This document shows positions 27,085 through 40,843 of a stretch of DNA of 64,000 bases, in pieces. This stretch comes from Tichowtungia aerotolerans (GTDB taxonomy: Bacteria > Verrucomicrobiota > Kiritimatiellia > Kiritimatiellales > Tichowtungiaceae): contig NZ_CP047593.1 in NCBI RefSeq assembly GCF_009905215.1, positions 1,058,900 through 1,122,899 on the forward strand, written 5' to 3'. The translations under genes and the position numbers were made by a program. The notes under the pieces are model-generated. The model was not told the origin of the DNA. It saw only the letters and a program-made list of their open reading frames with translations, and made no database searches. Each line of letters begins with the position of its first letter. Positions within the stretch are counted from its first letter, which is position 1.

Positions 27085-30000
27085 CTAATTCTGCGAGTCG
27101 CTGACCCAGTCACCACAAAGCAGTTCGGCCTGCTGGAGGATAGTGCGCGTCGCCTTTTCCTGCCGGTCGGGCGGATAACCGTATTTGCGCAGGATGCGTT
27201 TCACCATAACGCGGATTTGGGCCTTCACGGCCTCTTTGGCTGTCCAGTCGATGGTTACGCTCCGCCTGACGCCCCCCACAAGCTCGTGGGCAATCTGTTT
27301 GAGCGTGTCGTCACCCAGTTCCATAACAGCGCTGTCGTTGGTTTCTAAGGCATCGTAAAAGGCCACCTCGTCATCAGTCAGCCCCAGCTCTTCCCCGCGC
27401 TTCATGGCGGCATTGAACTGCTTGGCGATCTCTACCAGCTCCATAATAATTTCTGCCGCCTCAATAGTGCGGTTCTGGTAGCGCCGGATCGTCTCTTCAA
27501 TCAGCTCCGAAAACTGCTTCGACTGGATCAGATTAGTGCGGCTTCGTGTGCGGATTTGATCCTGCAACAGCTTCTGCAACATTTCCACTGCGAGGTTCTT
27601 CTGCGGCATGCGGCTGAACTCATCGAGGAACCTGTCATCCAGAATAGAGATGTCGGGGCGGTTGAGACCGGCAGCCGTAAAGATGTCCACTACCTCATCG
27701 GATGACACCGAACGCGAGACCAACTGCTTGATGGCCTCATTAATTTTTTCCTTCTCGTTCTGTCCGCCGGTTCCCCCTCTCGGGTCGAGCTTGGCGAGCT
27801 GGGCAGACACCGCCTGAAAGAACCCGATGTCGTCACGAATAGCCATTGCCTGCTCATGCGTACCAGCCAGAGCAAACGCCTGTGCAAGCTGGCGCGTGTA
27901 TCCGCGCATGCGCTTAGAGCCGTCCTCCTGAGCCAGCACATGCTCTACCGCTTCGGTAAGACACCTCAGCCTTTCCGCAGGACTTCCATCAAAATAGGGC
28001 GACCAGTCAACCCCGTGCATAATCCCGCAGGCAACCTCATACTTTTCGAGCATAATAGCCACGGCTTCCGCCTGATCATATGTCGGGCTCCCCAGTCCGC
28101 CATTCTCGGTATAATTGGCCACCGCCTTTTTTAACTGCTCCGCAATGCCCAGATAATCGACCACCAGCCCGCCGGGCTTATCCTTGAACACACGGTTTAC
28201 GCGGGCAATCGCCTGCATCAATCCATGCCCCTGCATCGGCTTGTCCACATACATCGTGTGCAGAGACGGCACATCGAAACCGGTCAGCCACATATCGCGC
28301 ACCAAAACCAGTTTTAGCGGATCAGACGGGTCTTTGAAGCGCTGTTCAATATCCTTGCGCACCCGCCCGGTCATCAAATGGCGGGCGTAGCGTTCCGGGT
28401 CACTGGCCGAACCGGTCATCACCACCTTAACCGCACCCTTGGCAAAATCCGTGTCGTCCCACTCGGGACGCAGCTTAATAATCTCATCAAACAGGTCTAC
28501 GCAGATGCGGCGGCTCATGCAAACCGCCATCGCCTTGCCTTCGATAATCTCCGCCCGCCGCTCAAAATGATCCACAATATCCTGCGCCACCAGCGAAAGC
28601 CGCTTCTTCGTTCCAACCATCGCTTCGAGCTGCGACCACTTGCGTTTCAGTCGTGACTGCTCGCTGATTTCCTCTCCCTCGGTCAGCTCTTCAAACTCGG
28701 GGTCAATATGCGGGCGCTCAGCGGCATCCAGATCAATCTTAGCCAATCGTGCCTCATAATAGATGCGAACCGTTGCGCCGTCTTCCACCGCCTGCTCAAT
28801 ATCATACACGCTGATGTGCTCGCCAAAGATGGCGCGGGTATTGCGGTCGGCCAGTTCCACCGGCGTGCCGGTAAATCCGATAAATGAGGCATGGGGCAAG
28901 CCGTCGCGCAGATGGCGGGCAAACCCGTCAATCAGGTCATACTGTGAACGGTGCGCTTCGTCCGCAATCACCACAATGTTACGCCGGTCAGACAGCATCG
29001 GAAATTCGGACTCATCCGAGAGCGGCGCAAACTTCTGCATTGTCGTAAACACCACCCCGCCGCTCGACACCTGCAGCAGCTCGCGCAAGTGACTGCGGCT
29101 CTCCGCCTGAACCGGCGACTGCCGCAACAGCTCTTCTCCTAACGCAAACGTTCCGAACAACTGATCATCCAGATCGTTGCGGTCGGTAATCACAACCAAC
29201 GTAGGATTGTCCAGCGCCTGAATAATCTTACCGGCATAAAAAAGCATCGACAGGCTTTTGCCCGACCCTTGCGTATGCCACACCACGCCGACCCGTCCGT
29301 CACCGGATTCAACCGATGCCTGCTTCGTGCACTCAACCGCCTTTTGCACCGCATGGAACTGATGATAGGCCGCCAGTTTTTTAATCACCTTGCCGCTGTC
29401 ATCTTCGAACACCGCAAAATGCCGGATCAGGTCGAGAAACACCAACGGCTCAAATACACCCTTAATCGCTGTTTCCAGCATTGGCATGCCCAAAGGGGCC
29501 ACCGACTCGCCATCGATCGTTCTCCACGGCAAGAACCGCTCAAAATCGGCAGAAAGCGCCCCCACACGCGCATCTGCTCCGTCCGAGATCAGCAAAACCT
29601 CATTATGCGTGAACAAAGACGGAATTTGCGCCTTATAGGTCTGGAGCTGATTATAGGCCGACTTCACATCGGCGCTTTCGTCTGCGGCGTTTTTCAGCTC
29701 AATAACGCCCAGCGGCAGGCCGTTCACAAACACCACCATGTCGGGGCGGCGGTTCACATGGTTTTCAACCATCGTGAACTGGTTCACCACCAGCCAATCG
29801 TTGTTTTCCAATGTGTGGAAATCAAACAGCCAAACCTTTTCTGTAAACTCCCTCTCGCCACGGAAAAAAGTAACGTCGATTCCTTCCGTCACCATTTTGT
29901 GGAACATCCGGTTGTTCAAAATCGGAGTTGGAGCGTCCGCCCGCATCACCTCACGCACCGCCTCCTCAATTGACATACGCGGAATTGTCGGATTGATCTC

Positions 30001-30168
30001 CAGCAACGCATTGCAGAGTCGATTTTCCAGAACGGCAGAATCATAGCCGGTTCGTTCGGAGTATTCTCCGTCCGGCGCAATGTCCGGCCCCGGCAGATAG
30101 CTGTAGCCCAGCTCCACAAACCAATCAATGGTCGCCTCTTCTACAATCGACTCTGAAAATTTAGGCAC
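27085..30168 (-). CDS. hsdR: Type I restriction enzyme R subunit
   Basis: 1027 residues. The N-terminal PD-(D/E)xK nuclease is visible at about 163-182 ([19 protein letters not shown]). The SF2 motor follows: Walker A in [15 protein letters not shown] in [11 protein letters not shown], then FTGTP and QAIARVNR. The C-terminal coiled part has DEVAFYDAL. It cleaves DNA far from the site after ATP-driven translocation, in a complex with HsdM and HsdS. It lies about 9 kb from hsdM and hsdS but on the same strand, with inserted accessory genes between. Confidence 0.96.
29806..29820. repeat. Dispersed near-palindrome TTCCA-N5-TGGAA
   Basis: TTCCAATGTGTGGAA in hsdR, read as Phe-His-Thr-Leu-Glu. Confidence 0.65.
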
Positions 30169-30186
30169 GATAAAACACCCTCTCTC

Positions 30187-32148
30187 TTACTCTTTCGCTT
30201 TTAGCAGATTCTTAATTTCCACTAAATTCTGATTAATTTGCTTGAGCACCTCCATTACCCCACCCTGATCTATATCCGCCTCTACCGTAGATGGCTCAAC
30301 AACTGTCACTTGCGGATCATGCAGCCAGTACGTTTTTCCCTGCTCGGGCAGAACAACATTAAGGTTGCGAACACTTTCGTTGTCGCTAAAGCCAATAGTT
30401 TTTTTAAACCCTTCTCTGGAAATATTAATTCCATGATTTAGAAATACAGCATTCGTAGCTTCTGGAGACAATCTGGCAAGATGATTGTCTATGATAATCT
30501 CAGGCGAGGCATGACCGGAATACCCATCCAGCATCACAATTTTGGCCTTAATATCCTTTGTGTGAATGATAGTTTCACCAAAATTCAACGTTTCCACATA
30601 TTCGGAATCATTCATCAGCGAAAGCAGCTTGTTCCCATTCGTTCCTCCAGACTGATACCCAGTCAGAGCAACAGTAAACTGCTTATCTTTCAGCACGTTT
30701 TCGAGATGATGAAGCACGACACCACCATCACACATACCACTGCTAGAAATAATAATAGACGGCGACCTGCTAAAGGTTCTATATGGAGTCGGTTTATCTC
30801 CCGATGAAAAAGTAAAACGCTCGACAGATGACTTCCCATCAATAGCCGCACGAAAAACTTCTGCGCGCCTCTCCGGCTCATCCTCTGGATAATACATGTT
30901 TTTATCCTCAGTTCGCTGGGCGAAAAGTTCTTTTTGGTATATTTTCGAAACCTGATTCCCGAGATACGACTCACATCGAATCGGAATGGTCACAAGACGT
31001 TTAATCTTCATGAGCTCCTCTGCCACAAAAGAAAGTTGGTCTTGAGACACTAACACTCGCGTTTTTTTACACGACAGCAGCAACTCTTTAATTTCCCTCA
31101 GTGCATACTTATGAATGGATTTATCGTCTAGAATTTGAAGTAACAGATCGGGAATAACAGGCTTTTTCCCGGGCTTGAGAATGATTGTCGAAAGGACTGC
31201 GTGTTGATCCAGTTCGCACATCTCAGATTCTTCCAGCAACTCCACTAACTCTTTAGGGAGAACCCCGCTCTCCAGCTTCGCAATCAGCGTATCGAGACTA
31301 ACCCATAGCCGCCTATATTCCGGAGGATGGTTTGGAAAACCTTGTTCTGCGACCGCGATTAGGTCATACAGAACCTCCTGCATGCGATGGATAGAAAATG
31401 CCGGAATCAATAGGTTTCGCTGGCCAACAATCAGTTCCTGTTCTACCAGAGTTTTCAAATTGGCCAACCGTTGGTCACGTGAGGGATGGTCCGTAGCCTT
31501 GGTGCCACCTTTGGTTGATTCCAAAACAACATAGTTTGTAGTTTTAAACGGCCCCTGCGACTCCTTTAATAAATAGCTGCTGTTAAAGTGATCCGTTGTC
31601 GGGCCGATGTCCCCACTGAACAACATACTTTTGAGATATTTCTCATTATCTGGATGCTCTTCCCGCCAAACAACCCCCAAAGAACATGCTCCCAAAATAT
31701 GTGCCGATCTCAGGGCATAAACGCTCAAGTCTTCATCCAGCCGGAACTGCTGTCCCCACTTAAACCCTGCGCGCTGATCTAAATAATGAAATTTCACCCG
31801 CCCCACATCATTGTATCGATAAAGTTCGCCCTTCGTGATTCGAGCAGAGTCCATTAGAACTTCTTTGGCAATTAGGGCTGTAGCCCTTGTGCAATAAACT
31901 TTTCCGACAAAGCCCTCTTTATAGAGTCTAGGAATCAAACCGCAATGATCGAGATGAGCATGCGTCAGCAAAACAAATTTCAAACTTTTCGGATCAAATA
32001 AAAATGGCTTTTGATTTTCAAATTCGGCGTGCGGCGTTCCCTGAACCATTCCGCAATCCACTAAAAATTGCACATCCTTTGGAGTATAGTGCAAATGCGT
32101 ACACGATCCTGTAACCTGATCTATTCCACCGCAGAATGTAACCTTCAT
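30187..32148 (-). CDS. Beta-CASP metallo-beta-lactamase-fold nuclease
   Basis: 653 residues. The metal motif THAHLDHCG (about 61-69) and the downstream SGDIGPTTD and SAHILGA are of the MBL fold. The beta-CASP part has SSSGMCDGG and GYSGHASPE, the usual motifs A-C of RNA exo/endonucleases of the CPSF73/RNase J-like group. It probably processes RNA. A C-terminal helical tail (about 620-653) ends in Lys-rich residues. It is embedded in the RM operon, 18 bp upstream of hsdR, which suggests a role in defence or in its control. Confidence 0.85.
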   Translation of the reverse strand: MKVTFCGGIDQVTGSCTHLHYTPKDVQFLVDCGMVQGTPHAEFENQKPFLFDPKSLKFVLLTHAHLDHCGLIPRLYKEGFVGKVYCTRATALIAKEVLMDSARITKGELYRYNDVGRVKFHYLDQRAGFKWGQQFRLDEDLSVYALRSAHILGACSLGVVWREEHPDNEKYLKSMLFSGDIGPTTDHFNSSYLLKESQGPFKTTNYVVLESTKGGTKATDHPSRDQRLANLKTLVEQELIVGQRNLLIPAFSIHRMQEVLYDLIAVAEQGFPNHPPEYRRLWVSLDTLIAKLESGVLPKELVELLEESEMCELDQHAVLSTIILKPGKKPVIPDLLLQILDDKSIHKYALREIKELLLSCKKTRVLVSQDQLSFVAEELMKIKRLVTIPIRCESYLGNQVSKIYQKELFAQRTEDKNMYYPEDEPERRAEVFRAAIDGKSSVERFTFSSGDKPTPYRTFSRSPSIIISSSGMCDGGVVLHHLENVLKDKQFTVALTGYQSGGTNGNKLLSLMNDSEYVETLNFGETIIHTKDIKAKIVMLDGYSGHASPEIIIDNHLARLSPEATNAVFLNHGINISREGFKKTIGFSDNESVRNLNVVLPEQGKTYWLHDPQVTVVEPSTVEADIDQGGVMEVLKQINQNLVEIKNLLKAKE

Positions 32149-32175
32149 ATATCCCTTTCGCCTATTCCGTGGGGT

Positions 32176-33162
32176 CTAGTCTTCCACATCTTCCGGTTGC
32201 CAGTCACCGACATCCATATTTTTAATGCGCTCGCCAAACACCTTTCGGAATGCTTCCAGTTTTTCGAGCATCCATTCATGCGCCGTTGGCCAGCACCGTT
32301 TGTCGTTCGGATCAAAATCTGAATTGCGAAGAACAATATGACTGTTCTTTTTGTCGGGCTTTCCCTGCCACTCCAGCACTTCGCCCAGTTCAGATTCAAT
32401 AATGGGCTGCTCCTGATACAACAAATTGAAAACCGCCAATCGATCATCTGTATTGTTGATTTGCAGGCAGACGGACATCAGTCCGGCTTGCGTATTCAAT
32501 AAAGCCGCAGGAAAAGCCTTACTGGTTCCACAACTGAAATTCATCCAATGACAAGCTGCCGGTTTTTGAGGGCGCATAACGGAGCTGTTTTCAAGGACAT
32601 ATTCACGGAACTGTTTCCAATATTCGAGCTGCAACTGTTTGACCGGGGTCAGTTTCTCACTCTGAGTAACGGTCGATGTCCCGCCTTTACCTTTTGTCCA
32701 CTCGTTGGGCTTAGAGACCGCGTTAAACTTGGGAGCTATAGGGGAATCGCCGATCCGCCACAATTCGATTTCCAGACCGAAGAAACTTATTTCATCGCCG
32801 GTGATTTCGTTGAGCCAATCCAAGGCTGCGCGGTGCTCGTCGGTAAAGCGTTTGGCAATCCACACTATGGTTACGGTGTTAAGTCCGGCGGCATAAGTCA
32901 GCAGTTGGCCAAGATGAGTGTGGTCGGTGCGTTCGACCTGATTTTCAATCAGCACCCATGCATTGGTTCCGGTGTCCTTGCAGAGAATATCCGCGCGAAA
33001 CGGCCCAACATCCTTTTCCACCGCCTCCAGTTCCAGATCCAGACCGATGGTGTCACCGAGAAGAGCGAGGTTTTCTTCCCCTGCCAGCCACGGAGTAAAA
33101 TGCTGCGCCTCCGTCTTCCACACATCCCGTAATTCAACCTTCTGTAATCGTCCGAGCTTCAT
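32176..33162 (-). CDS. DUF4268 nuclease-fold protein
   Basis: 328 residues. The N-terminal half has the PD-(D/E)xK-like set FRADILCKD ... WVLIENQVERTDHTHLGQL (about 53-85), followed by TYAAGLNTVTIVWIAKRF. The C-terminal half is the DUF4268 region (about 190-310). Such proteins often accompany type I RM loci and may be accessory nucleases; the catalytic activity is not proven. It lies between the HEPN gene and the beta-CASP gene with short gaps. Confidence 0.75.
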   Translation of the reverse strand: MKLGRLQKVELRDVWKTEAQHFTPWLAGEENLALLGDTIGLDLELEAVEKDVGPFRADILCKDTGTNAWVLIENQVERTDHTHLGQLLTYAAGLNTVTIVWIAKRFTDEHRAALDWLNEITGDEISFFGLEIELWRIGDSPIAPKFNAVSKPNEWTKGKGGTSTVTQSEKLTPVKQLQLEYWKQFREYVLENSSVMRPQKPAACHWMNFSCGTSKAFPAALLNTQAGLMSVCLQINNTDDRLAVFNLLYQEQPIIESELGEVLEWQGKPDKKNSHIVLRNSDFDPNDKRCWPTAHEWMLEKLEAFRKVFGERIKNMDVGDWQPEDVED

Positions 33163-33174
33163 ATAGCCTTCCTC

Positions 33175-34119
33175 TTAGAGTTGAATCAACCTGTTTTGTT
33201 TTAAGAACTCTCCTAACGAGTCCGTATTTGATGGCTTAGGAAAATGAGCGTTTTTGACCATCCATACAATTTGGAATTTACGTCTCTGCTCTTTTGCAGA
33301 AAGCATTTTCCTATGAGGGTGAGTTGTTCTCCATTTTTTACAGAAAGCAATTTCTGCTTTTTGCGACCGACTCAACTCGGCATCAAGTGTCGCTATCATT
33401 TTAAGAACAATTCCGGATAAGCCCACTACGCCATGAAGGTCTATCTCTACCGGCGCACCAAGAATTGGCGACGAGTGTTTGGGAACCTCTTTAACGCCAA
33501 GGGTAGTTGCCGAAGCAACAGCAGAGAAACGAGTGTATGCATCGATCAACCTTTGCGTACAGACACCAGTGCTATGCATTTCACAATTACGAATCTCCTT
33601 GAAAAAACGATAGCATAGTAACATTTCCTCTAGTTTTGAGTCTGAATACGACAGCTTGCCACACAAAGAACTATAAAAGTTTGTTTTTAGCACGATTGAT
33701 TCTTGTTGCGTCAATTCTCGCAACACCGTGGTCACGTCTTTTTTGCCAGCGCCTCGACGTGGAAACTGCAGGCCTAAAGACCGCTCTTTCGAGCTTGCGT
33801 TTAGCTCGGACAGAACGGCATCCACCCATCCCTCATAAATGGCAATGATGTTCGTTAAAATTAAACGAGAGAAACTTTCTTTCTGCTCCTCCCAAGAGTG
33901 CTCAATGCAGGCTCTACGGAGATTTGCACCATGAATATTTGCCCCCTCTGAGAACCGGCCCTTTAATTGTGTGTTTGTTGCATTAGGTATCGCATCGAGA
34001 TAGCCCGCAACTTGCCATCTGAGATTCCACATAGCCGTGGCTGTCGGCCACACGAAATCAAAGAGCCCTGTAATTTGTTTGTGTGCGCTATCTGAGGCTG
34101 AAAAAAAATAGGTGGCCAT
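33175..34119 (-). CDS. HEPN-type protein, probable toxin partner of the ABC module
   Basis: 314 residues from the ATG at 34119 (MATYFFSAS); the longer frame overlaps the ATPase gene. The all-helical middle ends in FKEIRNCEMHSTG, giving R177-N-C-E-M-H182, a perfect RNxxxH (R-X4-H) motif of the HEPN ribonuclease superfamily. A helical stretch SRLILTNIIAIYEGWVDAVL (about 84-103) fits the first HEPN helices. HEPN proteins cleave RNA in many defence systems. It starts 11 bp after the ABC ATPase stop, so it is probably the effector or a further subunit of that module (inference). Confidence 0.6.
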   Translation of the reverse strand: MATYFFSASDSAHKQITGLFDFVWPTATAMWNLRWQVAGYLDAIPNATNTQLKGRFSEGANIHGANLRRACIEHSWEEQKESFSRLILTNIIAIYEGWVDAVLSELNASSKERSLGLQFPRRGAGKKDVTTVLRELTQQESIVLKTNFYSSLCGKLSYSDSKLEEMLLCYRFFKEIRNCEMHSTGVCTQRLIDAYTRFSAVASATTLGVKEVPKHSSPILGAPVEIDLHGVVGLSGIVLKMIATLDAELSRSQKAEIAFCKKWRTTHPHRKMLSAKEQRRKFQIVWMVKNAHFPKPSNTDSLGEFLKQNRLIQL

Positions 34120-34130
34120 ACAAAATTCCG

Positions 34131-36038
34131 TTATACGTTTTTCAGAGCCTTGTTTGCTTCTGTGAAATGAGGGCCAACACACAGCGCGGAATCTTCAAGA
34201 TCGGGATGTATCATCGAAGTAGAAAAGATAATTTGATGCGGCTCGCCAAACTCTGAAGCCATATCAACTATCTTCTTCTGGAAATTGTGACTTCGAGCCT
34301 GCTCCATTCCCTTGTCCTCCATGTTGTCACAAAGCAACAATCGAGGGTAGCGGATGTAACTCAACTCCATAGCAGCAAAAAACAATGCGTAATGGATGCT
34401 GTTTTTTAGATAGAAAACAGAACTGGCAGAAAAATTATTCTTCTGATTTACCCCGAACGTATTCAATCGGAAATCAATTTGCACATTATTTACATGCTGG
34501 AACTCAGCCTCTCGCGGAAGATCTGCTTCCAGAAGCACCTTTGCGTACTTTGCGATAACATCGTACACCTCCATACTCCTGCTTGCATGACGCATCCGTG
34601 CCCGCTTGATTCTGATCTCAAGGGCGCTAATGGTGCCGGTCAAAAGTTCATTCTTTTTGTCTAGGTCGCGTTGGACCTGAAAAACTTTCATCCGTGACAA
34701 CAGGGATTCTATTTGACTCTCAAGGGTTCCCTTCCGCTCATGTAGTGCATCTTTTTCAGCCGACCTAACTGTTTTGACCGAATTAAGCGATGCCTCCAAA
34801 TTTGATTTCGCAACACCGAGTTCCTCTTTTATGGTTTTGACTGAGGCCGTAATCTTTTCTAACTCGTCTTTTTTATCAGCATATAACCGCTCGGACTCCT
34901 TCTGCTGAAAGACCAACTCTTGCCTCATACGCATTAAGTCTGATCTCGCTTTTTCTTTATCAACGGGTTGCTTGCAAAGGAAACATTCGTCGCCTCCCTC
35001 TGATGTCTCAACAGGTTGCATACATGCCGGGCAAATTTTCAGAAAATCTTCTGCCAGCACTTTTTTGACCAGCAAAGCATCATCTATGGCAGCAATACGG
35101 TCACTCAATGCTGCCAAGAAGTCAGATGAATCCAGCAGTTGAAATTCCAAAACTTTGATTTGCTCCTGTGCATCTTCGAACGCTTGCCGTTTTTTAATAT
35201 ATGTAGACTTCTGCGCCACTAGTTCTGCACTATCAATTTCGGATGAGCTATCCTCTTCCACCCATTCTTGAGCGTTTATTGTCTCCTGGACTTCAATAAG
35301 TTGTAGTTTACTGTTTTCAACCTGACTTTCCAGAAACTCATAACTCTCACCGGCCTGATCGACCGCAGCAAAAACCTCTGAAAATGTTTTCAGCTGGGAG
35401 CGTACTTGCTCTAATTCTTTTTGTTTTTTGCGATGCTCAAGTTGGTCTACATACAAATCCTTATCATAAAGACCAAGCAAAAGTTCTGCTATGGTTTCGC
35501 GAGTAAGGGGAGAGTCGAATTGCTCTTCTCGAATAAGGGACTGGACATGCGACAACTGGTCTATGTACAGCACTCGTAACAACTGATGCATGGTAATGTT
35601 ACTGTCATGATCTCCCCATACCTCAGGGAGTCCAATTGCAGAAAACAGAACCTGTGAAAAGCTTTGCTTTTTCTCAGATCGCTTAAACGGAAATACATTC
35701 CAATCTGTTTCCGGAGCATTTTCTAGGTCGGCAAAACTCCCCCAAAAAATTTCCATGCTTTGCATGCTTTTTTTCGTTACGAACCGTCTCAGCACCGCAG
35801 GTGTTCCATTAATAGAGACCTCCACATACACGGTATCACAAAGGGACGCTTCCAGCTTCCATTTTTTAAAATCTCCGCCCAGAGAAAAGAATAGAAAATC
35901 CATAATAGAAGATTTTCCGGAACCATTGTCTCCGCGAATAATATTGACTCCTTCATGGAAATCTAAATCCAGTGCGACCCCTTTATGAGCAAGCACTACA
36001 AGCTTATTAACTCTGAAATAACATCTCTCAGGTGTCAT
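34131..36038 (-). CDS. SMC/Rad50-like ABC ATPase (ABC-3C-type)
   Basis: 635 residues. Walker A is GDNGSGKSS (36-44). Long coiled coils (about 195-330 and 360-480) flank a zinc hook-like CPAC (336-339) / CFLC (352-355) pair. The C-terminal ATPase half has FSASSVFYLKNS (signature-like), a Walker B strand PRLLLCDNMEDKG in which Asn follows the Asp in place of the usual Glu, and IIFSTS. Its neighbours (middle component and CTD-like gene) identify it as the ATPase of an ABC-three-component conflict system, a class described in a survey of ABC ATPases by Aravind and colleagues. It probably senses invading nucleic acid and releases the effector. Confidence 0.75.
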   Translation of the reverse strand: MTPERCYFRVNKLVVLAHKGVALDLDFHEGVNIIRGDNGSGKSSIMDFLFFSLGGDFKKWKLEASLCDTVYVEVSINGTPAVLRRFVTKKSMQSMEIFWGSFADLENAPETDWNVFPFKRSEKKQSFSQVLFSAIGLPEVWGDHDSNITMHQLLRVLYIDQLSHVQSLIREEQFDSPLTRETIAELLLGLYDKDLYVDQLEHRKKQKELEQVRSQLKTFSEVFAAVDQAGESYEFLESQVENSKLQLIEVQETINAQEWVEEDSSSEIDSAELVAQKSTYIKKRQAFEDAQEQIKVLEFQLLDSSDFLAALSDRIAAIDDALLVKKVLAEDFLKICPACMQPVETSEGGDECFLCKQPVDKEKARSDLMRMRQELVFQQKESERLYADKKDELEKITASVKTIKEELGVAKSNLEASLNSVKTVRSAEKDALHERKGTLESQIESLLSRMKVFQVQRDLDKKNELLTGTISALEIRIKRARMRHASRSMEVYDVIAKYAKVLLEADLPREAEFQHVNNVQIDFRLNTFGVNQKNNFSASSVFYLKNSIHYALFFAAMELSYIRYPRLLLCDNMEDKGMEQARSHNFQKKIVDMASEFGEPHQIIFSTSMIHPDLEDSALCVGPHFTEANKALKNV

Positions 36039-36528
36039 ACTGGTACTCCATCAGTTTCGTTCTTGCTTTCAACCCGCCATCTCCCGACAGTTGAACTCCA
36101 GCCAATTCTTCAACTAAAAATTTCACCACGTCTTGCATGCTTTGCGTTCGAGTAGAGATCGAATCCCTCAGTTCTTTTGGGAGTTCTTTTTTTGTCCGGC
36201 ATATAACCCCCAGCTGTATTTGAGTCTCGTCAATAACTTCCAGCGCCTGCAAATATTTTACGGCGAGCATCTGGTATGGCTCCGCTCGTTGAAATAGTGA
36301 TTTGGGATTCCCTTTGTCCTCGTACGATGTCACGGACTTGAAATGCTTTCGATACTTGCGCGCAGACTGCGGCATTTTCATGGCGTTAATTAGCGACGGG
36401 AACACCATGTAAAAATCAAGTATCCTCATCTTATCTAACTCATAAGAGTTTTCAGGTGCTTCTTCCAGTAGTTGAAGCATACGAAACACACAGTGACAGG
36501 CATCATATAGAGGATGATATAGAAGCAT
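36028..36528 (-). CDS. ABC-3C middle component (MC5-like)
   Basis: 166 residues. The start, YHPLYDACHCVFRMLQLLE (4-22), and KMRILDFYMVFPSLI (33-47) match what I recall of the middle component of ABC-three-component systems, a small wHTH-like adaptor. It overlaps the ATPase start by 11 bp and follows the CTD gene by 4 bp, so the three are translated together. The exact class number (5) is from memory. Confidence 0.6.
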   Translation of the reverse strand: MLLYHPLYDACHCVFRMLQLLEEAPENSYELDKMRILDFYMVFPSLINAMKMPQSARKYRKHFKSVTSYEDKGNPKSLFQRAEPYQMLAVKYLQALEVIDETQIQLGVICRTKKELPKELRDSISTRTQSMQDVVKFLVEELAGVQLSGDGGLKARTKLMEYQYDT

Positions 36529-36532
36529 TATT

Positions 36533-37105
36533 TCAAACCCATTTGATATGGCAGTTGCCGGTTAAAAAATACAGAGCCCCATTTATTTCATCTGCATACA
36601 AACACAAGACGTTTTCTCCCAGCCGTTCGATTAGCGGATCAACAATCGAGTCGCTAACTGCTGCCAAAACGTCCTCAGGAGGGCTCCCTGCATTTATCAA
36701 TGGGTATACCTTTGTATGGTATTTTGAGAATATATCCGCCAGCACATACGCATAAATTTGCTGGGCGGATTCATAAAACTGGTACTTCATTAGTTTCTTG
36801 GCGAATGCCTCCTTCACAGAATTAGCATAGCCGATATAGGCGGAATACCCACCATCAACCAATTTGGTTTCCAGACCAATCACGACACCATCGTCATCGA
36901 CATTAGAAGAAAAATGTTCAAGCCGTTCGATCAGCTCGGTTACCTGTCGGTTATTTTTATATTCCTCTTTAAACTGCGCAATCAAACGCCTCATCACTTC
37001 AGGCGTTCTGCTAGGAGCCTCATAGTAATTTGTCACGGACTTATCAATATCCCGCCCGGCCAGATCGCCACCAACTTGGTTTTTTGCTTGAGTAGCCATG
37101 GCCAT
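36533..37105 (-). CDS. ABC-3C CTD-like protein with GGDxAGRD leader motif
   Basis: 190 residues. It opens with NQVGGDLAGRDIDKSVTNYY (9-28), a glycine-Asp motif common at the front of conflict-system proteins, then a helical and mixed domain (GYSAYIGYANSVKEAF, YVLADIFSKYHTK) that occupies the CTD slot of an ABC-3C operon. No nuclease, protease or TIR motif is fused to it. If this is the whole system, the toxic activity must be in another protein, and the HEPN gene is the best candidate. Its ATG overlaps the stop of the 58-residue membrane peptide (TAATG). Confidence 0.55.
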   Translation of the reverse strand: MAMATQAKNQVGGDLAGRDIDKSVTNYYEAPSRTPEVMRRLIAQFKEEYKNNRQVTELIERLEHFSSNVDDDGVVIGLETKLVDGGYSAYIGYANSVKEAFAKKLMKYQFYESAQQIYAYVLADIFSKYHTKVYPLINAGSPPEDVLAAVSDSIVDPLIERLGENVLCLYADEINGALYFLTGNCHIKWV

Positions 37106-37281
37106 TATTTATGAATATCACGCCCTGCCTGATCACCGCCAACAGCATTTCCTTTTTGAATAACCTTTGAGTTATCCGAGGAGTTTTTGAATCTGTTAAC
37201 TTTGATAATTAGCCCCGCAGTTCCTAGCGCGCCGATGATGGCAACAATTGCAATACCGATAGTCTTTATAGTTTCACTCAT
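37105..37281 (-). CDS. 58-residue membrane peptide with GGDxAGRDI tail
   Basis: Residues 1-26 (MSETIKTIGIAIVAIIGALG ...) form one membrane helix. Residues 44-57 (GNAVGGDQAGRDIH) repeat the GGDxAGRDI motif of the next protein (NQVGGDLAGRDID). The stop overlaps the next ATG (TAATG), so both are coupled. A GGTGGAG ribosome-binding site 9 bp upstream lies in a decayed copy of the hsdS 3' end. A real gene is likely because of the shared motif, coupling and spacing. It may anchor or gate the ABC-3C complex at the membrane (inference). Confidence 0.7.
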   Translation of the reverse strand: MSETIKTIGIAIVAIIGALGTAGLIIKVNRFKNSSDNSKVIQKGNAVGGDQAGRDIHK

Positions 37282-37287
37282 ATTATT

Positions 37288-37352
37288 TTCTCCACCATCT
37301 TTTCAACTTCTGAAATTTCCGACATTCCGGAAAATAGCTTGGGACACAGACT
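37288..37352 (-). pseudogene. Decayed copy of the hsdS 3' end
   Basis: Reads CPKLFSGMSEISEVEKMVEK, against [20 protein letters not shown] at the end of the intact hsdS 570 bp upstream; I estimate about three quarters of the bases agree over some 60 bp. It marks a duplication, or an insertion at the end of hsdS, and still supplies the ribosome-binding site of the membrane peptide. Confidence 0.8.
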
Positions 37353-37366
37353 GCTTTTATCAATCA

Positions 37367-37930
37367 TCAGGTGATCCCCTTACCGTCCTGTTTTCGTGTA
37401 TCAAGAGTCGGCATTCGCTGCCCATAAAAAGATTTGTAGTTCACAACCAGATTTAGCGACTCATCCAGAGCGGCTTTAATCTGATTCATCAAACTGCTTT
37501 TTTCCTGCCCTCCATCAACTGGGCTTACAACAACCTGACAGACAATATGCTCTTCCCCAACCTGCACTACCTTCCCCGAACCAAACGTCGATGTTTTGCA
37601 AGAATTGACTTTCCCATGAGTTTTCAACAGTTCACGTATAAGCTCATTGTTGTAATCACACACCTCACCATCTCTCAGCACTTCGTAGCTAGAGATTATT
37701 GCAGGTCCCAACCCGGCATTCCGCAAACGAACAATTAACTCTATCTGATTGTTGCGGGAGTTCTCTTCAGTGTGAATATCCAGAGCAGGCAATACCGAAA
37801 GACGATTATGTCGGCGAGTGGCAATGCCCTGCTGTATAGCGACAAACAGAGCACATAAAGCAATGGCATTTTTTGAGAGGAAGTCCCACGCACTCAATAC
37901 CCAAGTCAAAAATTGAGGAGTGTCGCTCAC
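37367..37930 (-). CDS. Single-pass membrane protein, unknown function
   Basis: 187 residues from a GTG that overlaps the hsdS stop (GTGA). One N-terminal membrane helix (about 18-34, SKNAIALCALFVAIQQG) is followed by a soluble beta-rich domain (LIVRLRNAGLGPAIISS, VCQVVVSPVDGGQE). NAGLGPAII is typical of small membrane-anchored proteins found in RM loci. No enzymatic motif is seen. It lies between hsdS and the hsdS remnant, so it probably came in with that rearrangement. Confidence 0.6.
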   Translation of the reverse strand: MSDTPQFLTWVLSAWDFLSKNAIALCALFVAIQQGIATRRHNRLSVLPALDIHTEENSRNNQIELIVRLRNAGLGPAIISSYEVLRDGEVCDYNNELIRELLKTHGKVNSCKTSTFGSGKVVQVGEEHIVCQVVVSPVDGGQEKSSLMNQIKAALDESLNLVVNYKSFYGQRMPTLDTRKQDGKGIT

Positions 37931-39282
37931 GCCACACCCTCCACCATCTTTTCAGCCTCTGGGATTTCCAACTCTCCGGAAAGCAGTTTCGGCAACAACG
38001 TGTCGCGCAAATCAGAAAGCGTTCTATTTTGTTCAACGTTTCGGGTTATTCGGTCGTACAAGTCGCTTGCGGTTTTATTGTATTCGGCCAGCACATCGCC
38101 CGATGGAACAAGCACGGGGATAGGCCGGAAATTCTTTTTGCTGATCTCGGCAAACGTTGTGCCGCTGGCCCGTTGTTTAATCTCATCCATAATAGAGTTG
38201 GCCCATTGCAAGACATATGTGTTGGGCAGCGCCTTGTCACAAACCATTGCAATAAAGCCCTGATTGATTGAAATCGGAATTTTTGAAATAGCCAAATACC
38301 CGACCGGAGCACGAGAAGACATTAAAACTGTCCCTTCGGGAAGCTGCTTGGAGCTAATTGACTGAACGCCTGCATCTGTAATTTTTCGGTCTGTATCAAG
38401 CAGAATAAAATTTGTGAGCTTTGACATATCTTTCGGCGTTGCCCAGTGATGCACCCCGCCATCCCAAAACTCGGGATTCTTTGTGCGCGGGGTTCCTCCG
38501 CCCTTAATTGTCACTTGGTTGCCAATCGTCGAAACATCCCACCCTCTGGGAATCGGGCCGAGTTCCGAGGGTTGGAAACTGTCGGGGAATTTTTTCCGAA
38601 CATTGGAAAAAATTTCCCCAAGGGCTGGACGCAGTTTCGCACGGCGCTCGGCCTTTTCGGCCAGCTCTTCAGGAATTGGACTTCCGGCGGCACGGGCGTT
38701 GTCGATAACTGGATCAAAATCAACAAACCACGATTTAAAAAGCGCCTGCGCCATCGCCTCCTGCGTCTCATTCATTTTCCGGTTCAGCTCAATCTTGTCA
38801 TCTAGTGCCCCTAGAATATCCACGATTGCTTTTTGCTCTTCAACCGGCGGGAGACATACCGACTGTGTCGCAAGCTCACGATAATATATACGGACACGAA
38901 CAGAACCAACCCCTGCTGATTCCGCCCAGCTCTTCCAAGAGGCACATTCGGTTAATAGGTATAAATATTCTGGAAGTATCTCCTTCTCATCACAGGAGAA
39001 AACCACATAGTCGGGACTAACGAGGCCGTGCAAATGCCGTTTAGAGCAAAATCCGATTGAGCCGATATTTAATCGCATTGGATTATACGCAAACATACCC
39101 GGAGCAATCCGCTTGTATCGCTCAAGGCTGCTCGATAAATATTTGGCATTGGGTGTTAACCCAACCTGCCGGTCAACCCCATAGACAGGCACTCCTGATG
39201 TTGCCCCTTTGCCACACCGAACTGTGGACTCCTTGATCACGTCGCCAAGCAAGCAACTACGCCACATCTGTTTCTTAGACAT
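37927..39282 (-). CDS. hsdS: Type I restriction enzyme specificity subunit
   Basis: 451 residues from the ATG at 39282, which overlaps the hsdM stop by 8 bp; a GTG lies three codons further up. Two target-recognition domains (about 5-150 and 240-395) are joined by conserved helical regions: [20 protein letters not shown] with [19 protein letters not shown], and the C-terminal [20 protein letters not shown]. It sets the DNA sequence methylated and restricted. The target cannot be predicted from the sequence. Confidence 0.95.
38594..38608. repeat. Dispersed near-palindrome, one mismatch
   Basis: TTCCGAACATTGGAA in hsdS; the left arm has one change from TTCCA. Confidence 0.5.
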
Positions 39283-40843
39283 CAAAACCACACCTTTTTA
39301 ACGCGCGACAAACCCTCTGATCACACTCCTTGGACTTCTCCATAAGCTGAGAAAGTTCCGCGCAAAGGCCATTCATCTTGTTTTCAAAAATAACATACTC
39401 CTCTTCTTGCGCCTCAGAACCAACATAACGCCCCGGTGTTAAAACATAATCGTTCTTTCTAATGTTTTCTGTGGGTACAACCGCACAAAACCCTGTGACA
39501 TCCGAATAGGCTGTAGACTCGTCGCGCCCTGTCCATGAGTGATATGTCTGAGCAAGCACACTGATTTCATCTTTGGTTAGCTCCATGTGCGTGCGGTCCG
39601 CCGGAGCGCCCATCTTGCGAGCATCTATAAATAGAACCTCACCTTTGCACCCTTGCCGCTTTTTGCGACGTAAAAACCAAAGACAAACCGGAATCGGTGT
39701 TGAGTAAAACAACTGACCGGGCAAAGCAACCATGCAATCGACCAGATCAGCATCGACCAGTGCTTTGCGAATGTCGCCTTCGCCGCCGGTGTTGGAACTC
39801 ATTGATCCGTTGGCCAAAACAAAGCCTGCCGTTCCGCTGGGAGACAGGTGATGCACCATGTGCTGCACCCATGCGAAGTTGGCATTTCCCGCAGGCGGAA
39901 CTCCATGCGTCCACCGTTTGTCATCTTTGAGCTTTTCGCCGCCCCAGTCGGAAATATTGAAGGGCGGGTTGGCGAGAATGAAGTCGGCCTTCAGGTCGGG
40001 GTGCTTGTCGTTATGAAACGTATCAGCCCACTGGTCGCCCAGATTGCACTCGATTCCGCGCAAAGCCATGTTCATGCGAGCCAGTCGCCATGTCGTTGGG
40101 TTGGACTCCTGTCCATAGACTGACAGGTCGGTTTTCTGCCCGCCGTGAGCTTCGGTAAATTTTTCGGATTGCACAAACATCCCGCCCGATCCGCAGCAGG
40201 GGTCATAGATGCGGCCTTTATACGGTTCGAGCATTTCAACCAGTGTGCGCACCACGCAGGCAGGAGTATAGAATTCGCCACCGCCCTTGCCTTCTGCCGC
40301 CGCAAACTTGCCCAGAAAATATTCGTAAATGCGCCCCAGCAAATCCTGCTCTTCGTGATGCCCCATCATGTCAATGGTACTGATCAAATCAATCAGTTCG
40401 CCAAGGCGACGCTTGTCCACTTCGGGCTTGGCATAATTTTTCGGCAAAATGCCTTTGAGAGATTTATTTTCCTTTTCGATCAGGTCCATCGCGTTATCGA
40501 TGGTCTGACCAATGGTGGGGCGCTTGGCTTCCTTCTGGATCACTTCCCAGCGCGCAGTTGACGGCACCCAGAAAACATTTTTGGCCGCGTATTCGTCTCG
40601 GTCTTCCAGTACGACCAGTTGGTCTCTTTCATTCCGGGTGTGGTATTCACTATCGGGATCGCCGGTTTCCTGAATCAGCCAATCGCGCTGCTCACAAAAC
40701 TTGTCAGAAATGTACTTTAAGAAGATCAGGCCGAGAATGATGTGCTTGTACTCAGAGGCATCCATACTGCCGCGCAGTTTATCCGCCGCCAGCCACAGCT
40801 TTTCTTCAAAGCCGATATTCGCCCCCGTCTGCTTTTTCGCCAT
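39275..40843 (-). CDS. hsdM: Type I restriction enzyme N6-adenine methyltransferase
   Basis: 522 residues. An N-terminal HsdM_N helical domain ([20 protein letters not shown]) is followed by the methyltransferase: [18 protein letters not shown] motif [11 protein letters not shown] and catalytic NPPF in [16 protein letters not shown]. It methylates adenine in the HsdS-defined site to protect host DNA. It is the first gene of the 13-gene minus-strand operon; the promoter is probably in 40844-41028, shared with the divergent ankyrin gene. Confidence 0.96.

Follow-up and report, generated by a model that had tools for sequence, protein, structure and literature searches.

Lamassu systems have been described as acting by abortive infection, and the review that treats them lists only enzymatic N-terminal effector domains for LmuA and leaves the manner of activation open (PMC10586767). 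In the amyloid signalling of bacteria (BASS) a motif is found both at the C-terminus of an effector, as in the Bell effectors, and at the N-terminus of an NLR, and the authors of that work ask openly whether bacterial amyloid signalling also exists in NLR-independent pathways (PMC7889193). In the RHIM necrosome of RIPK1 and RIPK3, finally, a short motif, acting homotypically, relays a death signal to a membrane effector (PMC12133306).

The locus described here lies in a stretch of 64,000 nucleotides of the Tichowtungia aerotolerans genome (NZ_CP047593.1, positions 1,058,900 to 1,122,899), referred to in the following as the window, and its features are collected in Table 1. On the strength of its domain matches the CTD9-MC5-LmuB operon belongs to ABC-3C, that is to the Lamassu superfamily, since ATPase, middle component and CTD docking domain are all present. 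An enzymatic domain fused in front of the CTD was found neither in a Pfam scan of the window CTD9 nor in its predicted model, and we therefore file the window system as a variant of ABC-3C and not as a standard member. In that model (pLDDT 82) residues 1-33 form a coil that carries the tag while the remainder is all-helical. Foldseek gave no confident fold for CTD9, and sequence searches of solved structures gave no match for CTD9 (best E 0.28) or for LmuB. The best VIA-align neighbour of CTD9, the C-terminal region of a chain of the YydD-YydB complex (9a6c_B, residues 346-473; Z 6.5, rmsd 3.5 over 115 residues), is suggestive only, as a common helical arrangement could give this score.

Table 1. 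Features of the ABC-3C locus and its surroundings (positions in the window)
Feature	Position	Strand	Basis
Membrane peptide, 58 aa; putative split effector of the ABC-3C system	37105..37281	-	ORF and translation (MSETIKTIGIAIVAIIGALGTAGLIIKVNRFKNSSDNSKVIQKGNAVGGDQAGRDIHK); equivalents in 82 CTD9 loci; purifying selection in relatives
Shine-Dalgarno-like GGAG	37290..37293	-	8 nt before the peptide ATG
Predicted transmembrane helix of peptide, about residues 8-26, rich in glycine and small residues	37204..37260	-	hydropathy 2.54, highest 19-residue value in the peptide, from residue 8
C-terminal tag of peptide, QKGNAVGGDQAGRDIHK	37108..37158	-	match to CTD9 start; conservation in relatives
ABC-3C CTD9 protein (190 aa), in the effector position like LmuA but lacking an enzymatic domain	36533..37105	-	PF20285 E 9.1e-36; begins MAMATQAKNQVGGDLAGRDIDK
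N-terminal tag of CTD9, QAKNQVGGDLAGRDIDK	37040..37090	-	second match when the genome of the window is searched with the peptide profile
CTD9 docking domain	36539..36877	-	PF20285, residues 77-189
ABC-3C middle component 5 (MC5, LmuC position)	36028..36528	-	PF20291 E 1.1e-46
SMC/Rad50-like ABC ATPase, LmuB type, CPxC pair in coiled-coil region	34131..36038	-	PADLOC LmuB E 1.3e-42; AAA_23 2.1e-10
hsdM	40843-39275	-	name read from translation
hsdS	39291-37927	-	Pfam match
187-aa ORF	37930-37367	-	ORF between hsdS and peptide
hsdR	30168-27085	-	name read from translation

Directly upstream of CTD9 an earlier note, made from the letters alone, had pointed to an overlooked membrane ORF of 58 residues. 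Its coordinates and tail sequence proved correct, as did the start given for the next protein, a GGAG and a hydrophobic helix are present, and the one-base overlap TAATG claimed for the two genes is borne out by base 37105, which is common to both. Taken with the data on relatives given below, this ORF is a real gene. The same note had expected gene finders to miss it, which does not always hold, as plasmids of Allorhizobium and Agrobacterium have equivalents of 62-64 aa that their annotation lists as hypothetical proteins (WP_165222358.1, WP_065705850.1). No model in Pfam or NCBIfam covers the peptide family, the HetE-N domain (PF20701 / NF047935) was not found in the window peptide by scans of either collection, and Rfam has no match within 36000-38000 of the window.

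The ABC-3C operon sits inside a type I restriction-modification locus (27085-40843, minus strand), between hsdS and hsdR, and two further ORFs and a beta-CASP metallo-beta-lactamase protein lie on the same strand between LmuB and hsdR. This setting is shared by few relatives, since hsdM or hsdR is near by in only five of them (L019, L044, L048, L049 and L089). Just upstream of the peptide the 3' end of hsdS recurs as a remnant of 44 bp with 84% identity (37290-37333 against 37927-37990, both on the minus strand; LCPKLFSGMSEISEVEKMVE in the comparison of the two). On either side of the 187-aa ORF there is thus a copy of the hsdS end, which looks as if the ORF had been inserted together with a duplicated end.

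The search for relatives relied on a pattern from the CTD9 C-terminus and so made no use of the tag; genome contigs gave no match to the window CTD9 alone, whereas an alignment query did find relatives. Contig matches, plasmid matches and one genome of the same class make up 82 usable loci, the window counted in, and these span Verrucomicrobiota, Acidobacteriota, Bacteroidota, Alpha- and Gammaproteobacteria and others. Of 89 loci, 86 encode LmuB and 84 encode MC5, which marks them as complete ABC-3C operons. All 82 have a small gene directly upstream of CTD9 (median length 64 aa; median gap 2 nt, range -38 to 47), the partner ORF having been picked by adjacency, yet with the motif in view. In close pairs the pN/pS of the peptide is mostly 0.04-0.3 and resembles that of CTD9 (1.04 in L051/L057, a pair with few changes), from which it follows that the peptide is under strong purifying selection in such pairs. 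The search upstream of CTD genes in other genomes that had been proposed as a check thus turned up comparable ORFs, with synonymous and nonsynonymous changes mostly far from equal, so that what the note had named as refuting its claim was not observed. The peptide is rare: among 337 genomes sampled evenly from the class to which Agrobacterium rosae belongs, only two contain a match, one of them being A. rosae itself, and phage records contain neither peptide nor CTD9.

Among 35 peptides the positions G49, D50, G53 and D55 of the tag are near-invariant. The last 40 residues of each partner were aligned to the first 60 of its own CTD9, and in 80 of the 82 loci the alignment scored above that of shuffled sequences (p<0.05); in the window none of 20000 composition shuffles of the peptide tail reached the score, in agreement with the earlier claim of a motif common to the end of the peptide and the start of the next protein. 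Controls of the same construction gave 3/80 for the CTD9 C-terminus against the MC N-terminus and 1/82 for the partner body against the CTD9 core. A profile of the peptide run over 40 whole genomes (E <= 0.1) matched nothing but the peptide and the beginning of the CTD9 next to it. Peptide and CTD9 would thus most likely meet through the common tag. In a Prevotella locus (L039, 2691-3851) what an upstream protein of 175 aa and CTD9 have in common is the stretch GNPGxxNTFQ...FNPNA at the N-terminus of each, in place of a C-terminal tag.

But what would the peptide do once it has met CTD9? The slot upstream of CTD9 is not reserved for one kind of protein. Tagged partners comprise single-helix peptides, membrane proteins with two helices (2-TM), a helical bundle, a phosphoesterase and HetE-N/GapS6a proteins. 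The bundle, of 120 aa, is the partner in L061, L073 and L083; its model has a pLDDT of 79 with a disordered tag, and a structure search with the L073 protein gave middling matches only, which leaves a Bell/HeLo fold neither shown nor excluded. In L046 (3632-4984) a calcineurin-like phosphoesterase (5.6e-14), weakly related to anti-phage phosphoesterase models, stands directly upstream of CTD9 and ends in two copies of the tag, and the partners in L072 (PF20701 1.6e-27, NF047935 2.9e-37) and L132 (PF20701 5.6e-29) are HetE-N/GapS6a proteins. In other loci CTD9 itself is fused to an enzyme, namely to a lipase-like alpha/beta hydrolase in L008-L011 (Pfam DUF676 in L010) and to an HNH-like domain in L030 and L056 (HNH_2 0.013 in L030; CxxxxC and HH motifs by eye), and in these fused loci neither a tag on CTD9 nor a tagged upstream partner was seen. 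The best 80 loci were ranked by similarity to the tag-bearing CTD9, a ranking that disfavours fused forms. Because no tag was seen where CTD9 is fused to an enzyme, because the partner varies as effectors do, and because the window CTD9 has no enzymatic domain, we propose that the peptide is the effector: it would act at the membrane for an ABC-3C defence system whose sensor and effector are separate proteins, and a homotypic tag would recruit it. We put the probability of this reading at roughly 0.7.

The earlier note had instead supposed that the peptide tethers or gates the ABC-3C complex, and a constitutive tether, which would hold the complex at the membrane, for example near the site of phage DNA entry, with the effector elsewhere, is the alternative that fares best. 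A single helix, a motif shared with CTD9 and a predicted cytoplasmic tail would all suit it. It would, however, leave the effector to be sought in operons in which we saw no other candidate, and neither the filling of the same slot by effector-type proteins that are not membrane proteins (HetE-N/GapS6a, phosphoesterase) nor the lack of a visible tag where CTD9 carries an enzyme is what a tether would lead one to expect. We thus retain the probable meeting through the motif but regard tethering or gating as unlikely, since the peptide takes the place of the effector.

That the two tags belong to each other is further suggested by their co-variation. Among 29 loci with less than 50% identity in the CTD9 core, the scores of partners with their own CTD9 sum to 1695 as against 942 +/- 52 when permuted (0/20000), and the similarity structures of the two sets of tags correlate beyond that of the CTD9 core (partial Mantel r 0.65, 0/2000). 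Local variants are found on both sides, as in L036 (STFNGPYAGRDI / SNFFGPYAGRDL), L085 (SRVGRDQIGN / SNVGRDQIGN) and L037 (AGRDIVGG / AGRDIIAG), and in Bacteroidota loci forms of NxGxxEKQINIQDNxGNI are common to partner and CTD9. Co-variation of tags alone is no proof of contact, and a short motif rich in G, D and R could also be a ligand-binding loop; both tags might then bind a common third ligand, be it a nucleic acid, a metal or another subunit, and the likeness within a locus would reflect that ligand or gene conversion. The strong differences between the tag classes of different loci (GGDxxGRD, GPYAGRD, QINIQDNxGNI, HTGSGDNVGRDK), though, speak for cognate pairing more than for a single fixed ligand, and we hold this explanation to be improbable. 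Least probable of all is that the peptide is an inhibitor or antidote which keeps CTD9 inactive through the tag until it is released or degraded on infection, for although the gene is small, lies upstream and overlaps or adjoins the next one, as in some toxin-antitoxin pairs, the window CTD9 has no recognisable toxic domain and some partners are themselves enzymes or named antiphage components.

The HetE-N partners lead beyond ABC-3C. In L132 the tag HTGxGDNVGRDKII is nearly identical in the HetE-N protein and in CTD9, and in Thiothrix and a relative the HetE-N/GapS6a effector family is likewise placed in an ABC-3C operon. The C-terminus of GapS6a and the N-terminus of the protein downstream of it share a tag in five plasmid pairs (L123, L124, L125, L126 and L127; each p 0.0002), and these tags, for example QHHTGSGDNVAGNKI / QHHSGSGDNVQNKI and GTGDNVARDK / GSGDNVARDK, are of the same class as those of ABC-3C: with a profile of the ABC-3C tag built without L072, each of the five GapS6a-type C-termini is recognised (p 0.001-0.015), as are 3/5 of the downstream N-termini. 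NCBIfam names two of the downstream proteins GapS6b, in a scan that covered those of L123, L125 and L126. The 922-aa protein that follows the HetE-N partner in L123 has no match in Pfam or NCBIfam, GapS6b included, and begins with a similar tag, so that loci of this kind may hold a further sensor type. In L133 (1537-4017, minus strand) a HetE-N protein adjoins an NB-ARC/TPR NLR, and a tag of the form GVQAxxI stands at the C-terminus of the effector and the N-terminus of the NLR (IGKNTKGVQADKIDTLNM / IGTKASGVQANEIGAVNI, p 0.002). Judged by these termini, one effector family, HetE-N, is plugged into three types of sensor (CTD9/ABC-3C, GapS6b and NLR), each time by a matched terminal tag.

How, then, might such a system work? 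The LmuB-like ATPase together with MC5 would be the presumed DNA sensor and CTD9 the output subunit. On activation, if Lamassu biology is a guide, CTD9 subunits would be released or clustered, and their tags would seed a homotypic assembly, perhaps of cross-beta type, in which peptides are recruited and clustered by their cytoplasmic tails; the clustered helices might then permeabilise or depolarise the membrane. A cytoplasmic position of the window tag is predicted from the charge flanks of the short relatives, in 55/55 of which the C-flank of the helix is more positive than the N-flank (positive-inside). Most helices of these relatives have GxxxG or small-xxx-small patterns, which fit oligomerisation of the helix, without proving it. 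Binding of tag to tag, a probable amyloid-like form and killing at the membrane by a single-helix peptide are what we infer from these sequences. More tentatively, and at slightly short of even odds, we suggest that amyloid-type templating of the BASS or RHIM kind links a DNA sensor of the SMC/Rad50 class to a membrane effector that is a protein of its own, and that matched tags are a general plug for NLR, GapS6 and ABC-3C sensors. If so, amyloid signalling in bacteria would extend beyond NLRs, and immune sensors would exchange effectors by way of matched terminal tags.

The tagged CTD9 loci are a defined and testable candidate for NLR-independent amyloid signalling, with about 80 natural cognate pairs at hand. 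If the split-effector reading is true, it would explain how CTD-only ABC-3C systems, being free of any enzyme, can defend, by an effector gene that lies outside the models of Pfam and NCBIfam. Matching of tags is moreover a simple rule for finding the missing effectors of other immune systems, and has already exposed the sharing of a tag by GapS6a and GapS6b. Taken together, the data suggest that the tag plugs a separate, putatively membrane-killing part into a DNA-sensing bacterial immune system; the equivalent gene pairs of some 80 other bacteria share such a tag as well.

Of the systems to which this one may be compared, the RHIM necrosome offers a works-like analogy, a resemblance only; the phmmer search of the PDB with a BASS3 peptide gave no match and hence was unusable as a RHIM control. 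BASS resembles the window system in that the effector, small and often directed to membranes, ends in a short motif which recurs at the N-terminus of a sensor protein, the two genes being adjacent or overlapping, and the HetE-N/NLR pair of L133 has the very arrangement described there (PMC7889193). In BASS, however, the sensor is an NLR (STAND/NB-ARC), whereas the operon here is of the SMC-type ABC-3C kind and an amyloid form is only proposed; the scores of our tag profile were not significant, whether on the two published BASS3-type peptides examined (p about 0.10 for one and 0.2-0.25 for the other) or on published sigma peptides. GapS6 (GapS6a with HetE-N, and GapS6b; antiphage models NF047935/NF047936) shares with the window system a tag at the C-terminus of the effector and the N-terminus of the downstream protein, but GapS6b is not an ABC-3C component and the window effector would be a single-helix peptide without HetE-N. 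Lamassu/ABC-3C (LmuA-LmuB-LmuC, DdmABC) has in common with the window operon the SMC/Rad50-like ATPase, the middle component and a CTD protein in the position of LmuA. Different from LmuA, with its enzymatic N-terminal domain, the window CTD9 carries only a short tag, and its proposed effector is a separate membrane peptide.
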